From an uncultured Bacteroidales bacterium (GTDB lineage Bacteria > Bacteroidota > Bacteroidia > Bacteroidales > Bacteroidaceae): a stretch of DNA of 32,025 nt. Location of the stretch: NCBI GenBank assembly GCA_902774275.1, contig CACYHN010000035.1, positions 1-32,025 on the forward strand, written 5' to 3'. Both the position numbers and the translations under genes were made by a program. The notes under the pieces are model-generated. The model saw only the letters and a list, made by a program, of their open reading frames with translations. It searched no databases and was not told the origin of the DNA. Of this stretch, positions 34 through 25,540 are shown one piece after another; the first letter of the stretch is position 1; each line of letters starts with the position of its first letter.

Positions 34-156
34 TTACATACCTGACCGGTCAAAAGGTATAACCATCGGAACCTGATTATTATTCTGGTTCTGATTATTC
101 TGCTGCTGGTTATTATTCAGCTGAACAGTGGTTATATATTTAAAACCGATAAACAT
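34..156 (-). CDS. Asn/Gln-rich leader peptide (40 aa) of a gene beyond the left edge
   Basis: The ORF reads ATG at 156 to TAA at 34. Residues 12-28 are Asn or Gln at 16 of 17 positions (only Leu13 differs), then Val-Pro. The segment NNNQVP is also found in the leader ORF upstream of glmS (8532-8645), where the 19-nt DNA cggaacctgattattattc is identical (67-85 versus 8568-8586). A TATCTTTG box (187-194) lies about 30 nt upstream on the same strand. About 28 nt after the stop the window ends in AAGGC, the same bases that begin the terminator stem in the glmS leader at a similar distance (34 nt). Known: runs of one amino acid in short leader ORFs mark ribosome-mediated attenuators such as the his and phe leaders. 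Inference: this is a Gln- or Asn-sensing attenuator for an unseen leftward gene, probably in glutamine or nitrogen metabolism. An alternative TTG start lies upstream. Confidence 0.6.
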   Translation of the reverse strand: MFIGFKYITTVQLNNNQQQNNQNQNNNQVPMVIPFDRSGM

Positions 157-4779: not shown

Positions 4780-6601
<1,822 letters not shown>

Positions 6602-8446
6602 TTATTCTACTGTTACTGATTTGGCCAGGTTACGCGGCTGATCCACGTCACGTCCCTTGGCTATGGCTACATGATATGCCAGAAGCTGCAGCGGGATGAC
6701 TGAAAGCAGCGGTACAAGGCACTCCTCTGTGGCTGGTATCTCAAAATAGAGGTCTGACAGGGCACGCACATCCTTATCACCCTCTGTTACAATGCTTATC
6801 ACCCTACCCTTACGGGCTTTTACCTCCTGGATATTGCTCAGGATCTTGTCATAGTTGCCGCAGCGCGGGGCTATGGCAACCACAGGCATCTCCTCATCAA
6901 TCAAAGCGATAGGTCCGTGCTTCATCTCGGCAGCAGGATAACCCTCTGCATGGATATATGATATCTCCTTGAGCTTCAGAGCACCCTCAAGTGCCACCGG
7001 ATAGTTGTAGCCGCGACCCAGGTAAATAAAGTTGTGCGCGTATGTGAATGTCTTGGCTATCTCTGAAATCTGCTGGTTGTGCTTAAGGATAGTAGCAATC
7101 TTATCAGGTATGGTCTGCAATTCACGAATGATACGCAGGCTGTACTCATCGGTTACGGTACCCTTCTCCTTTGCTATGCTCAGAGCGAGCAGCAGCAGGG
7201 TCTCAACCTGTGCGGTGAATGCCTTGGTTGATGCCACACCTATCTCAGGGCCGGCATGCGTATAACAACCTGTATCCGCAGCACGTGCTATGGATGAGCC
7301 CACCACGTTACATATTCCGAACAGGAATGCTCCCGATGCCTTTGCCAGCTGCATGGCTGCCAGAGTATCGGCCGTCTCACCGGACTGCGAGATAGCTATA
7401 ACCACATCATCGGGATAGATTACCGGATTGCGGTAACGGAACTCCGATGAGTACTCTACCTCCACTGGTATGCGGGTAAGGTCCTCAATCAGATACTTGC
7501 CTATAAGGCCGGCATGCCATGAGGTTCCGCATGCGCAGATAATGATGCGACGGGCTTTAAGCAGCCTCTCCTTATGGTCAATAACACCTGAGAGCTTGAC
7601 AAGTCCAAGATCAGTATTCAATCGGCCGTTCATGACCGTACGGCAGGTATCGGGCTGCTCATGAATCTCCTTAAGCATAAAGTGCGGGAAACCACCCTTC
7701 TCTATCTGGCTCAGGTTGAGCTCCAGTTTCTTGATCACCGGAGTCTGCTCAATGCTACGCAGGTCTGTTATCTTAAGCTCCTTGCCGCGCTCTATGAAAG
7801 CTATCTGCTCCTCACCCAGATAGACTACGCGGTCAGTGTATTCTACTATCGGAGTGGCATCGGACCCTATCAGAAACTCATCATCACCTACACCTATTAT
7901 AAGAGGACTACCCTTGCGGGCGGCAATCATACGGTCTGGGTGTGTCTTGTCCACGATTACAATGGCATACGCACCTATCACGCTGTTCAGGGCCAGAGGA
8001 ACAGCCTCCTCAAGTGTGATGGAGTGGCTGTCCATGATATACTGGATTAGCTGTATGATAACCTCAGTATCTGTCTCACTCTTAAAATGATAGCCCTGAT
8101 TCTGAAGCTCTTTCTTAAGTGAACGGAAGTTCTCGATAATACCGTTATGTATGAGCGCCAGGTTACCTGATTCTGAGAAGTGCGGATGCGCATTCACATC
8201 ATTAGGCTCACCATGTGTGGCCCAGCGTGTATGTGCTATTCCTACTGTCCCGCTCAGGTCCTTGCCCTGGACAGTGCGGTCCAGATCTGCCACCTTACCT
8301 TTTGTCTTATATATTACCAGCTCGCCGCTGTCATTGATAAGTGCCACACCTGCACTGTCGTAACCACGATATTCAAGCCTCGATAGTCCTTTGATCAGAA
8401 TTGGATAAGCCTCACGCTTTCCGATGTAACCTACTATTCCACACAT
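6602..8446 (-). CDS. glmS: Glutamine--fructose-6-phosphate aminotransferase (isomerising)
   Basis: GlmS makes glucosamine-6-phosphate from fructose-6-phosphate and glutamine, the entry step to UDP-GlcNAc, peptidoglycan and LPS. The start is fixed at ATG 8446 because the mature enzyme needs Cys1 (MCGIVGYIG) as the N-terminal nucleophile; an in-frame ATG 18 codons upstream would bury it. The product is 614 aa (E. coli 609). The class II amidotransferase domain contains HTRWATHGEP and the HNGIIEN segment. Two SIS isomerase domains follow (about 290-430 and 460-600, with SQSGETADT and HGPIALID), and the C-terminus DQPRNLAKSVTVE is typical. It is first in a glmS-pyrG pair, preceded by a terminator hairpin ending about 14 nt before the start and a Gln/Asn-rich leader ORF. 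No glmS ribozyme-like sequence was recognised upstream. Confidence 0.97.
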   Translation of the reverse strand: MCGIVGYIGKREAYPILIKGLSRLEYRGYDSAGVALINDSGELVIYKTKGKVADLDRTVQGKDLSGTVGIAHTRWATHGEPNDVNAHPHFSESGNLALIHNGIIENFRSLKKELQNQGYHFKSETDTEVIIQLIQYIMDSHSITLEEAVPLALNSVIGAYAIVIVDKTHPDRMIAARKGSPLIIGVGDDEFLIGSDATPIVEYTDRVVYLGEEQIAFIERGKELKITDLRSIEQTPVIKKLELNLSQIEKGGFPHFMLKEIHEQPDTCRTVMNGRLNTDLGLVKLSGVIDHKERLLKARRIIICACGTSWHAGLIGKYLIEDLTRIPVEVEYSSEFRYRNPVIYPDDVVIAISQSGETADTLAAMQLAKASGAFLFGICNVVGSSIARAADTGCYTHAGPEIGVASTKAFTAQVETLLLLALSIAKEKGTVTDEYSLRIIRELQTIPDKIATILKHNQQISEIAKTFTYAHNFIYLGRGYNYPVALEGALKLKEISYIHAEGYPAAEMKHGPIALIDEEMPVVAIAPRCGNYDKILSNIQEVKARKGRVISIVTEGDKDVRALSDLYFEIPATEECLVPLLSVIPLQLLAYHVAIAKGRDVDQPRNLAKSVTVE

Positions 8447-8459
8447 AATATAAAACCTT

Positions 8460-8498
8460 AAAAAAAGAGGAAGGCTGGTCCTGCTTGAACCAGCCTTC
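8460..8498 (-). terminator. Intrinsic terminator/attenuator in the glmS leader
   Basis: On the minus strand the DNA reads GAAGGCTGGT, a 9-nt loop, ACCAGCCTTC, then CTC and seven T residues: a 10-bp stem followed by a U-tract. It lies between the leader ORF stop (8532) and the glmS ATG (8446), so full-strength termination would block glmS. This position is that of an attenuator rather than an end-of-operon terminator. Five bases near the end of the leader ORF (ACCAG within CACCAGTC) could pair with CTGGT in the terminator's first arm, a possible but weak antiterminator. Confidence 0.75.
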
Positions 8499-8531
8499 AC
8501 TCAATTTATCTAAATATTTCCTTTCTCTCCG

Positions 8532-8645
8532 TCATATTATCCGACTGGTGAAACAACACGGAGCTACCGGAACCTGATTATTATTCAGATTCTGCTTGTC
8601 ATTCATCTGATTGGAAAGACAATTATATGTAACTTTTCCCTCCAT
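8532..8645 (-). CDS. Asn/Gln-rich leader peptide of glmS-pyrG (37 aa)
   Basis: The ORF runs from ATG 8645 to TGA 8532. A purine-rich stretch follows the start, and no ordinary Shine-Dalgarno is obvious. Residues 12-24 hold nine Asn/Gln of thirteen, ending in NNNQVP, the same hexapeptide as in the leader at 34-156. It starts about 20 nt after the -7 box of a consensus promoter and ends 34 nt before an intrinsic terminator that precedes glmS. Known: GlmS and PyrG both take ammonia from glutamine. Inference: ribosome movement through the Gln/Asn codons controls the terminator, linking glmS-pyrG expression to glutamine (or asparagine) charging. The rest of the peptide (VAPCCFTSRII) matches no protein I know. 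Confidence 0.6.
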   Translation of the reverse strand: MEGKVTYNCLSNQMNDKQNLNNNQVPVAPCCFTSRII

Positions 8646-8664
8646 TATTGTTTCAAACTGTCGG

Positions 8665-8697
8665 CAAAAATACGGAAATAATTTCAAAATGCAAAAA
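8665..8697 (-). promoter_or_regulatory. Consensus Bacteroidetes promoter for glmS-pyrG
   Basis: The minus strand has TTTTTG (8697-8692), a 19-nt spacer and TATTTTTG (8672-8665). This matches the sigma-ABfr consensus TTTG-N19-TAnnTTTG. Transcription would start near 8658, giving a leader RNA of roughly 210 nt before glmS that contains the leader ORF and the terminator. Confidence 0.75.
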
Positions 8698-8728
8698 CCG
8701 AGCATAAAAAAATGTGCATTGTTTAAAG

Positions 8729-22622: not shown

Positions 22623-25540
22623 ATGAAGTACAAATTACTGACTATCATTGCGTCAGTGCTTTTTGCGCTGCCGCTCCAGGCTCAGCAGCCTGACCCCAAT
22701 TTCTTTATCTACCTATGCTTTGGCCAGTCCAATATGGAGGCCGGTGCCACTCCTGCCGATCAGGACAAGGATTGGAATGACCCAAGGTTCCAGTTCGTAT
22801 CGGCCGTGGATATGCCGCGCTACAACCGCAAAATGGGTGAATGGTACACCGCGACACCCCCTATCTGCCGTCAGAGCAACAACATGGGCCCGGTTGATTT
22901 CTTTGGGCGCAAGATGATTGAGGAACTACCCGAACAGTACCGAGTAGGTGTTATCAACGTCTCTGTTGCCGGCGCAAAACTGGAACTCTGGGACAAAGAT
23001 GCCTGCGAGGAGTATCTTGCAATGGAGGCCGCTGACCCCAGCCGCAACTGGCTTGTAAACATGGCTAAGGAGTATGATATGAACTGCTACCAGCGTATAG
23101 TCGATATGGCAAAAATCGCTCAGAAGAGCGGTGTCATAAAGGGTATGCTGGTACATCAGGGAGAATCCAACCCCGATGATGACCAGTGGTGCGCACGACT
23201 CAAGAAGATACATGATGACCTGTGCGCCGACCTGGGTCTGAACCCCGACGATATACCTCTGCTGGCCGGTGAGCTAAAACAGGCCGAGCAGGGCGGTGTT
23301 TGCGCCGCGTTCAACGAGGTTGTACTGGCTAACCTGCCCAAGGTGATGAAGAACGGATACGTAATCTCATCACTTGGCTGCGAGAGCACCGGTGACCAGT
23401 TCCATTTCAGCACTGAGGGTATGCGCCTTATGGGCTACCGTATGGCCGAGAAGATGCTCCAACTGCAGGGATTCAAGCCCGTTCAGGAGCGCTCAGTTAC
23501 CCTGAATCTCAAGAAGAAAGGTCTTGGCATCGAGGTAAGCCCCACCCTGGCAGGTATATTCTTTGAGGATATCAACCAGTCACTTGACGGCGGTATCTGC
23601 GCACAGCTTATCCAGAACCACTCGTTTCAGGCATACAATGTGCCCGATGCACCCGTACGCGACAAGGATAAGGAGTTCTCATACTCAGACACCGTATTCT
23701 TTGGCTGGACAGTAATAAAGAAAGACGGCGCACAGGGCCAGGCACATGCAGTAGCAGACAAGCCGCTTGTAAAGGACCTTAAACGTTACTATGATTTTGA
23801 TCCTAACGATAAGTATGACGATGAGCTGCGCTATGCACAGTACAGTGTAAAGTTTGACATTGAGGATGCCGGTCAGGGATTCGGCATAGCCGCCAACGGC
23901 TACGGCACTGCCCCCAATGACCGCCGCGGTTACTACTCAAACAACACCCAGAAGGCCTCCATTCCAGCAGTGCAGGGTGTAAGTTATGACCTTACACTCT
24001 ATCTTGCCGGTCAGTCATATCCCGGTACTATTACCGTGCAACTGGAAGATGAAAACGGCAAGGCTAACTCAAACGCAATAACGATATCACGTTTGACCAA
24101 TGACTGGAAAAAATATACAGGTCAGCTCAAGGCCGAGCGCTCGGTTGAAAGCCGCCTGTCTATTATTGCCGATAAGGCCGGAACATTCTGGCTTGACTAC
24201 GTTACACTGCTGCCCGAGGCTTCACAGCTCTGGCAGGAGGGCAAGTACGGTCCGTTCCGCAAGGACCTGATGCAGGCTCTGGCCGACCTTCACCCCACAT
24301 TCATGCGCTTTCCCGGCGGATGCGCCAGTGAGGGCACCAACTACTTCGGTCAGCCGTTCTGGAAGAAGTTACCTGCCAGTTTGCAGGACACCAGTACATT
24401 GCACCATTGGAGACCGAGGCTGACCGCAAACGTTTCCATGACATTTTTGTAAACGATGCCCTGGATTTCATTGAGTTCTGCAACGGAGGCACCAATACCA
24501 AGTGGGGTAAGATGCGTGCCGACATGGGACATCCCGAGCCCTTCAATCTCAAGTACTTAGGCATAGGCAACGAGAACAAGGGACCTGAGTTCTGGGAGCG
24601 TTTTGATATAATATATAAAGAGGTGCAGGCCAAGTACCCTGATATCATCATCGTCTCAACCGCAGGCTCTGCCGCCGACGGTCCGGAGTTCAATGCCAAC
24701 ATGCATGAGATAGACACCAAGTATCAGAACACCGTGGTCGATGAGCACTACTACCGCAACAACCAGTGGTTCTACACCAACGGTGACCGCTACAATGCCG
24801 ATAAGGTTCGCGGTGCCGACGGTCTGACCTATGACCGTAAGCGCCCCACCCGCGTATTCGTAGGCGAGTTCGCCAACAACAACAGCAACAATGATTACGC
24901 ATCGGCCATGGCCGAGGCGGCATACTGGACCAGCTTAGAGCGCAACAGCGATATGGTTGTTATGGCAGCCTATGCTCCCCTGCTCTGCAAGAAGGGCTAC
25001 AACAAGTGGAACTCAAACCTCATCTGGTTTGATAACCGCGGTCTGTGGCGTACCACCAACTACTACTATCAGGCCCTCTTCAGTGAGGCCGGAAACCGTG
25101 CCTTCCATATGACCGATGTCATGAACGGTGCCGAGGCAGACAAGAGCATCTACACATCACCCACCGTTAACACCGAGACCGGTGAGATTTACATCAAGTT
25201 TGTGAACTCCGAGGCTACCGATAAGGAACTGACCATCAACATGGGCAAGGGCCAGAACAAGAAGGCCTACACAGCAACCGTTGATTTCATCTCCTCACAT
25301 GACACCAAGATCAAGAATCAGGGAGACCTGAACAGCTTTGCAGGTGCACAGCCCCAGGCTCAGGCAGTTACCGGCGGCCGTCCAGGCCCGTTCGGAGGAT
25401 TCGGAGGCAACCGTAACCGCGTAAGTTACACCGAGGCTGTTGTACCTCACACAAAGGATTACGGAACCATCAAGAAGCAGTTCACTCTTACTCTTCCTGA
25501 GAACTCGATTGGCATCATCAAACTCGTTCCCGTCAAGTAA
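22623..25540 (+). pseudogene. Broken sialate O-acetylesterase-GH51 arabinofuranosidase fusion
   Basis: Two reading frames together encode one secreted enzyme. Frame 1 (22623-24452) has a signal peptide (ALPLQAQ), an SGNH acetylesterase domain (CFGQSNM near 30-36, HQGESN near 179-184, HFSTEG near 260), a carbohydrate-binding-like region and the start of GH51 (LAGIFFEDINQS; RFPGGCASEG near 563). After FWKK (24357-24368) the frame changes. The second frame resumes at VTCQFAGQYIAPLETEADRKR (from 24368) and runs to 25540 with GIGNENKG (acid/base Glu), DEHYY and VFVGEFA (probable nucleophile region). By family memory roughly 45-50 residues that should join these points are missing, so an internal deletion of 3n+1 nt is inferred; frame 1 ends in nonsense at 24452. 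The C-terminus has a Gly-rich GPFGGFGGNRNR stretch. It could instead be an assembly error. Confidence 0.8.

Follow-up and report, generated by a model that had tools for sequence, protein, structure and literature searches.

Leader region of glmS-pyrG

The 32,025-nt stretch of DNA analysed here in full (hereafter the window; contig CACYHN010000035.1, assembly GCA_902774275.1) derives from an uncultured Bacteroidales bacterium of the family Bacteroidaceae. Its minus strand carries glmS and pyrG, both identified by NCBIfam equivalogs matched well above cut-off, and upstream of glmS lies a leader region made up of a promoter, a short open reading frame (ORF) rich in asparagine (Asn, N) and glutamine (Gln, Q) codons, and an intrinsic terminator (Table 1). 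This layout had been described in an earlier reading of the letters alone (the sequence-only reading) and was confirmed when the minus strand was re-read. The promoter ends in a TAnnTTTG box, which we take to be the consensus of the Bacteroidetes type.

The leader peptide, MEGKVTYNCLSNQMNDKQNLNNNQVPVAPCCFTSRII, comprises 37 residues with 10 N/Q, nine of which fall within residues 12-24. Measured against the 9.25% N+Q background of 13 window ORFs, this content has a binomial p of 0.0012. The proteins of these 13 ORFs reach at most 6 N/Q per 13 residues, and one of their 37-residue stretches holds 11 N/Q; the leader ORF is unusual in its 13-residue core, and its full length alone is not extreme. 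What raises it above chance is the recurrence of such leaders in loci of the genus. An alternative in-frame upstream ATG would give a 57-residue leader and sits 5' of the expected transcription start. Scanning the window against Rfam returned zero families at gathering score, the glutamine riboswitch, the T-box and the glmS ribozyme included.

Table 1. Coordinates of the leader elements and associated genes in the window
Feature	Position	Strand	Details
Leader promoter, Bacteroidetes type	8665..8695	-	TTTG 8695-8692, 19 nt, TATTTTTG (TAnnTTTG) 8672-8665
Asn/Gln-rich leader ORF	8532..8645	-	37 codons + stop; ATG 8645-8643, TGA 8534-8532
Control-codon run	8574..8612	-	NQMNDKQNLNNNQ; N/Q 9/13
Putative antiterminator strand (segment 2)	8543..8549	-	ACCAGTC; inside ORF end; complementary to terminator 5' arm
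Intrinsic terminator hairpin (segments 3 + 4)	8470..8498	-	12 pairs, 7 G-C; then CTCTTTTTTT
Segment 3 core	8495-8489	-	GGCTGGT; part of terminator hairpin
Seven-T run 3' of hairpin	8460..8466	-	
glmS, glutamine--fructose-6-phosphate transaminase	6602..8446	-	NCBIfam TIGR01135, E 2.4e-249
pyrG, CTP synthase (glutamine hydrolysing)	4946..6556	-	NCBIfam TIGR00337, E 1.3e-232
Second leader ORF, glnK type	34..156	-	MFIGFKYITTVQLNNNQQQNNQNQNNNQVPMVIPFDRSGM; terminator cut by contig end

Conservation of the glmS leader in the genus

Full-length glmS was obtained from 24 of 37 genus genomes; many of these genomes are incomplete, and some copies may have escaped the search. Conservation of the ORF, its Asn/Gln codons and the terminator beyond close strains had been named beforehand as what an attenuator should display, and ORF and hairpin are both kept in 13 of the 24 glmS loci (L001-L005, L008, L010-L013, L015, L016 and L020; L, G and g numbers denote loci, genomes and genera). 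The bias towards synonymous substitution that had also been anticipated was found, the ratio of nonsynonymous to synonymous differences (pN/pS) among the 13 leader ORFs being 0.23. Length changes in the leader DNA amount to 3, 9 and 18 nt, and all of them keep the frame. Neither ORF nor hairpin is present in six loci (L006, L007, L009, L017, L023 and L024), where glmS lies directly behind another gene. In L014, L018, L019 and L021, segment 2 has been lost along with the ORF, while the glmS terminator hairpin survives. No such ORF was found at 80 glmS loci of named records (at most 78% identical, by title from Bacteroidota and one Chlorobiota, with less than 420 nt of upstream sequence in a few).

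Related leaders before other nitrogen genes

A search of the genus with leader DNA retrieved extra copies of the Asn/Gln core before pyrG, asnB, glnK or purF, or at contig ends. Among the matches read, L168, L169 and L172 were chance blastn matches, and the others fit leader positions. The asnB, glnK, pyrG and purF loci were then gathered regardless of leader presence, with genes identified by NCBIfam (glmS, asnB, amt, purF, pyrG) or Pfam (P-II, GSIII). Within this one genus, an Asn/Gln leader with a terminator precedes five gene kinds, namely glnK(-amtB), asnB, glmS, stand-alone pyrG and one purF; typical peptides are MFIGFKNITTVQLNNNQQQNNQNQNNNQVPMVIPFDRSGM for glnK, MAKGLVFVTNNNQNNNQNQNNNQVLMITSFGQRES for asnB and MENKVTYNCLSNQMNDKQNPNNQVLNNTVCSTSRTDC for pyrG. 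For glnK, a leader was found in 20 of 21 scored loci and, with L234, directly upstream in 21 of 22; in G015 (L233) it heads a 232-residue ORF, and glnK comes next after that ORF. For asnB, the count is 18 of 20 scored loci, with the frame-disrupted L204 among the 18; L212, which sits behind an amtB-like end, was left out of scoring.

Leaders are scarcer before pyrG (5/24 scored) and purF (1/23), and their presence there follows gene order. When pyrG lies directly behind glmS or purF, it has its own leader in 0 of 17 cases, as against 5 of 6 when it does not (placement by coordinates, L256-L259 not being placed). Similarly, none of the 20 purF genes that immediately follow glmS or a carB-like end has a leader; the single purF leader, in G014, is behind neither, and L283 and L284 are likewise behind neither yet lack one. 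As judged from these arrangements, the pattern across pyrG and purF loci is one of operon logic, with leaders standing at operon heads. In G036, glmS-purF-pyrG, glnK-amtB, asnB and GSIII form a single cluster.

Across 57 leaders, the ORFs hold 8-19 N/Q each, with both Asn and Gln codons in use (AAT, AAC, CAG and one CAA). Values of pN/pS are 0.44 for glnK and 0.65 for asnB leader ORFs. In 52 of the 57, a TAnnTTTG box is found no more than 75 nt from the leader ATG (7% in shuffles); 35 of those 52 also show a TTG box further upstream, at the distance searched, a feature seen in only 3 of 20 glnK leaders.

An automatic criterion was also applied, demanding an ORF of 20-65 codons with at least 8 N/Q and at least 22% N/Q, and after it a hairpin whose tail is rich in T. 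Such a leader was detected in 56 of 112 upstream regions of the five gene kinds (glmS 12/24, asnB 18/20, glnK 20/21, pyrG 5/24, purF 1/23), in 0 of 160 regions before other ORFs of at least 200 residues in the fetched genus loci, one of which has an N/Q-rich ORF without a hairpin, and in 0 of the 80 glmS regions of named records. The window leader passes the cut, and L005 falls below it. Two-mismatch pattern scans of the source genome (G000) and a genus scan with Lys-tolerant codons were noisy; no further regulon member was recognised in the former, nor in the latter among the matches listed. The carAB genes of G000 lie behind an aminotransferase ORF.

Terminator and putative antiterminator structures

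Segment 3, the terminator 5' arm with its CTGG core, is complementary to segment 2, a strand with CCAG at the end of the ORF, and the terminator 3' arm repeats segment 2, often with a change. In the window, the sequence-only reading had seen only the 5-bp pairing ACCAG/CTGGT and had called the antiterminator unclear; that pairing is present, extends to 7 bp (ACCAGTC with GGCTGGT), and has counterparts of 6-8 bp in all leader classes. Its seven T residues after the terminator were likewise correct, and its 10-bp stem proved to have 12 pairs. In a scripted search, 51 of 57 leaders had their best helix, of 6-9 bp, at this site; in L020 and L219-L223 the script chose another site, and the segment 2-3 helix was found by eye in these too. 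A contiguous helix of 6-8 bp occurs in 23 of 23 hand-chosen representatives, which span four genera and eight downstream gene kinds.

The spacing of these elements is also regular. The gap between the Asn/Gln run and segment 2 measures 20-21 nt in 17 of 18 asnB leaders (31 nt in L204), 21 nt in 15 well-scored glnK leaders, 24 nt in 10 of 13 glmS leaders, 10-27 nt in pyrG and 18 nt in purF, and the 3' end of segment 2 falls 8-14 nt short of the ORF end in well-scored rows, L204 excepted. Furthermore, the CCAG motif is kept despite a shift of frame, being read as aCC AGt in glmS and pyrG and as gaC CAG in asnB and glnK (alignment shifted two columns), and its frame differs between g22 and g15 leaders as well. 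The region between segment 2 and the terminator varies in length and letters. One compensatory change was found, with GGCCAG/CTGGTC in asnB and GGCCGG/CCGGTC in purF. In the alignment, 83.8% of antiterminator cells are paired, against 12-41% when the strands are slid; the terminator helix is 99.4% paired on a 20-leader alignment, with covariation above shuffles (0/500 reach the value).

Nascent folds were predicted for RNA extending as far as the terminator loop, a ribosome being placed on the last N/Q codon. Under this set-up, the mean probability of segment 2-3 pairing is 0.88 in asnB (lowest 0.00), 1.00 in glnK and 1.00 in the one purF leader. Of three pyrG leaders, L237 and L253 have the antiterminator as their best predicted fold; for L255, this requires a ribosome placed further along. 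Once the ribosome is set at the stop codon, terminator formation is predicted (class means 0.97-1.00).

Proposed mechanism and alternative explanations

The element is best read as a ribosome-mediated transcription attenuator that would sense the supply of charged Gln/Asn tRNA, and as one member of an attenuator regulon; from the sequence evidence, we put the probability of this reading at about 0.8. An attenuator had already been proposed for glmS-pyrG; the present comparison supports that idea and alters its scope, the window leader being one of several before nitrogen genes. Whereas the anatomy, conservation, recurrence before these genes, complementarity and spacing of the leader can be seen directly in the DNA, we infer that it is translated, that ribosomes stall and transcription terminates, and in which direction the genes respond. 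When Gln and Asn suffice, the ribosome would pass through the Asn/Gln run, reach the stop codon and cover segment 2 (CCAG), the terminator would fold, and transcription would end before the gene. Under shortage, the ribosome would stall in the Asn/Gln run, 10-27 nt (mostly 21-24) upstream of segment 2; the free segment 2 could then pair with the emerging segment 3 (CTGG), so that the terminator would not form in time and read-through would allow transcription of glmS-pyrG, and likewise of glnK-amtB, asnB, pyrG and purF. Mixed Asn and Gln codons would let the leader respond to either amino acid, AsnB making Asn from Gln.

A number of observations weigh against this reading. Four of the 24 glmS loci (those lacking segment 2) have the hairpin without an Asn/Gln ORF, one (L022) has a hairpin with a truncated ORF remnant, and 7 of 13 glmS leaders have a weak T run. 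Two asnB leaders are frame-disrupted (L204 and L205, the latter outside the 18), asnB in L199 has no leader, and neither has pyrG in L244, which is not behind glmS or purF; changes in asnB leaders are without third-position bias (550/514/531). Antiterminator covariation is not above shuffles (497/500 as high; 474/2000 in a second test), and the per-leader helix p is only 0.004-0.131 in well-scored rows. In the nascent folds of glmS, where a local hairpin competes, the mean probability of segment 2-3 pairing is 0.08; moving the ribosome on by three codons makes the antiterminator the best fold for L001 and L020 but not for L008. Finally, equilibrium folding of the full-length RNA favours the terminator even when a ribosome is stalled (class means 0.96-1.00), and therefore the proposed switch would have to be kinetic, as switching is in classical attenuators.

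The glmS loci with a hairpin and no Asn/Gln ORF, the truncated remnant and the weak T runs would suit a simpler view, in which function resides in the hairpin and the ORF is incidental, glmS level being set by a fixed partial terminator or by a start-codon hairpin damping translation. This is unlikely, given that the glmS ORF is under coding constraint, that a like ORF stands directly before glnK in 21/22 loci and before asnB in 18/20 scored (one of the 18 disrupted), and that segment 2 is conserved at the RNA level whatever its reading frame. This last feature could in turn indicate that the leader RNA binds a regulatory protein or is a riboswitch for glutamine, ammonium or 2-oxoglutarate, and glutamine riboswitches do exist in other bacteria. 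We regard such a role as very unlikely, in view of the missing Rfam match in the window at gathering score, the varying length and letters between segment 2 and the terminator, and the mostly synonymous changes in glmS leaders.

It is highly improbable that the ORF product itself acts, either in trans as a small protein or as an arrest peptide that stalls by its sequence rather than by its Asn/Gln codons. Although NCLSNQMNDKQN-like and C(F/S/T)(T/S)SR-like stretches are common to most glmS and several pyrG leaders, the C-termini are class-specific (CCFTSRII, FDQRES, FDRSGM, SSSRTIW), the frame of the CCAG region differs, and the trait held in common is N/Q-richness; the arrest-peptide idea was dropped because the C-terminal parts differ. 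Barely credible is a general sensor of translation speed, responding for example to antibiotics and not to particular amino acids, for which an upstream ORF of E. coli that senses ribosome-targeting drugs offers a parallel (extracts of PMC12121999); the profile-identified downstream genes are Gln, Asn or ammonium genes, and the leader codons match these.

Under attenuation by Gln/Asn supply, induction at shortage fits glnK-amtB and asnB well, and a rise of the glutamine consumers glmS, pyrG and purF at low substrate is at most plausible. One leader family appears to tie ammonium uptake and the synthesis of asparagine, amino sugars, CTP and purines to Gln/Asn supply, its putative attenuators staying at operon heads while operons rearrange. 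Leader-peptide attenuators are textbook matter for single biosynthetic operons, and to our knowledge nitrogen control in this phylum is poorly known. We see an even chance that dispersed leader attenuators, not a DNA-binding regulator, constitute global nitrogen control here, with mixed codons reporting both amide amino acids and copies heading the glutamine operons (glnK-amtB, asnB, glmS, pyrG, purF, perhaps gltB and glnN). Such a system could account for strong nitrogen responses of the sort published for a rumen Prevotella without invoking a transcription factor: according to extracts of one study, ammonium supply shifts glnK, amtB, asnB, glnN and gltBD of Prevotella ruminicola 23 by 27- to 69-fold, with amtB, glnK and asnB in the group of strongest changes, and pyrG is also affected, these extracts being inconsistent on whether limiting or non-limiting ammonium raises them (PMC5552732).

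Distribution in the family and order

A covariance model built from 20 leaders was run on 399 family genomes from 30 genera. In the window, it matched the second, glnK-type leader (G000:C35:1-93, E 1.2e-15), whose gene is off the contig; a glnK search elsewhere in G000 (78% complete) found none. Besides the genus itself, g30, g22 and g15 gave strong matches. At least 199 of the 399 genomes pass E 0.01, many with weak terminator-only matches; the 22 family matches inspected comprise 16 N/Q leaders, two gltB leaders with fewer N/Q, one of glnN type, one trp leader and two plain terminators. In other genera, N/Q leaders stand before glnK (g30, g22, g15) and asnB (g30), and in L328 (g30) a leader of N/Q type lies upstream of a GSIII-like ORF. 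An ORF of about 240 residues comes first behind the leader in L324, L327 and L329 (g22) and in L330 (G015); we take it by eye to be porin-like, and a Pfam search of the L324 copy only gave no match. The gltB (Pfam) leaders L334 and L336 (g22) contain an 8-bp ACCAGTCC/GGACTGGT pairing, with fewer Asn/Gln.

In addition, one genome from each of the 29 other family genera was examined, glnK being present in 16 and asnB in 16. Among the 31 gene starts scored, an N/Q-rich ORF was found only before glnK of g22 and g15, with L342 (g22) failing the hairpin part of the automatic test; the sampled g30 genome lacks a leader, though other g30 genomes carry leaders. The order sample comprised 393 genomes, G000 and other family members included. 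Outside the family, the best match of the order-level model search reached 41.5 bits, and nothing was convincing, as far as such a model, which leans heavily on sequence, can detect. Scripted inspection of 19 order-sample loci (L384 belonging to the own family) gave no leader-like ORF, the top N/Q fraction being 0.28 in an 18-residue ORF. Because nothing alike was found outside the family, the leader system looks, on these genomes, lineage-restricted and not general in Bacteroidales. Conservation, which the sequence-only reading had proposed to test in many Bacteroidales genomes, holds in these samples for the genus and three further family genera and not beyond the family.

Upstream of the GSIII gene that follows asnB stands a leader of another sort (MKVLIEYGFRYALEVGFNPKRN...LSPAGE*-like), which has a terminator of its own (L141 2299-2690, L158 7164-7519, L161 6548-6938). 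These three glnN (GSIII, Pfam) leaders contain CCAGCC/GGCTGG, their peptide is not clearly N/Q-rich, and they were kept apart; the glnN upstream region of L159 showed no such leader.

Relation to known systems

In its parts, the leader resembles the trp, his, phe and ilv leader-peptide attenuators, with a promoter, a short ORF bearing relevant codons, a terminator with a putative alternative antiterminator, and a biosynthetic operon. It differs from them in its Gln and Asn codons, in a single leader family serving several operons, in its Bacteroidota host, and in the placement of segment 2 within the end of the ORF, with the 3' arm of the terminator repeating it. A leader that suggests attenuation of the classical type is also present in the same family, at L341 (G162:C8, genus g23). 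This Trp leader (MNMNKNTYWWWRY...) has the same ORF and terminator layout and was found by the same model, but it has Trp codons, a Trp-type gene (a Pfam PALP match, TrpB by eye) and an unrelated sequence, its match E-value being only 2.4e-6.

Other RNA-based routes to these genes are known. Glutamine riboswitches (glnA RNA and the downstream-peptide motif) are aptamer-based and would link glutamine to nitrogen genes, and the glmS ribozyme and the GlmYZ small RNAs control glmS after initiation, by another mechanism and in other phyla; none of them has an Rfam match in the window. Among the matches listed in a search of the open-access literature, most subscription literature being outside its scope, no Gln or Asn leader-peptide attenuator was recognised. 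None appears in extracts of three attenuation papers (PMC4833913, PMC1183508, PMC2965389), and the main text of the last, a terminator survey, makes no mention of glutamine, asparagine or Bacteroid-. Related hints come from extracts on Bacteroides thetaiotaomicron, whose 5' untranslated regions hold leader-like small ORFs (PMC7366714), and on Flavobacterium, with clues for leader peptide attenuation upstream of amino-acid operons (PMC9723704). The proposed mechanism is of a known kind, and since the literature searched gave no precedent, the Gln/Asn leader family is taken as new within it.

Other features of the window

REP-like inverted repeats with GGGGAC/GTCCCC cores lie at 6569-6597, between glmS and pyrG, and at 319-341, and another, different GGGGAC inverted repeat is found upstream of pyrG in L236 and L242. 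On the plus strand, the ORFs at 22623-24452 and 24407-25540 overlap in different frames; the product of the former has an acetylesterase (SASA) domain, that of the latter corresponds to the later part of an arabinofuranosidase, and the two are possibly one frameshift-split gene.

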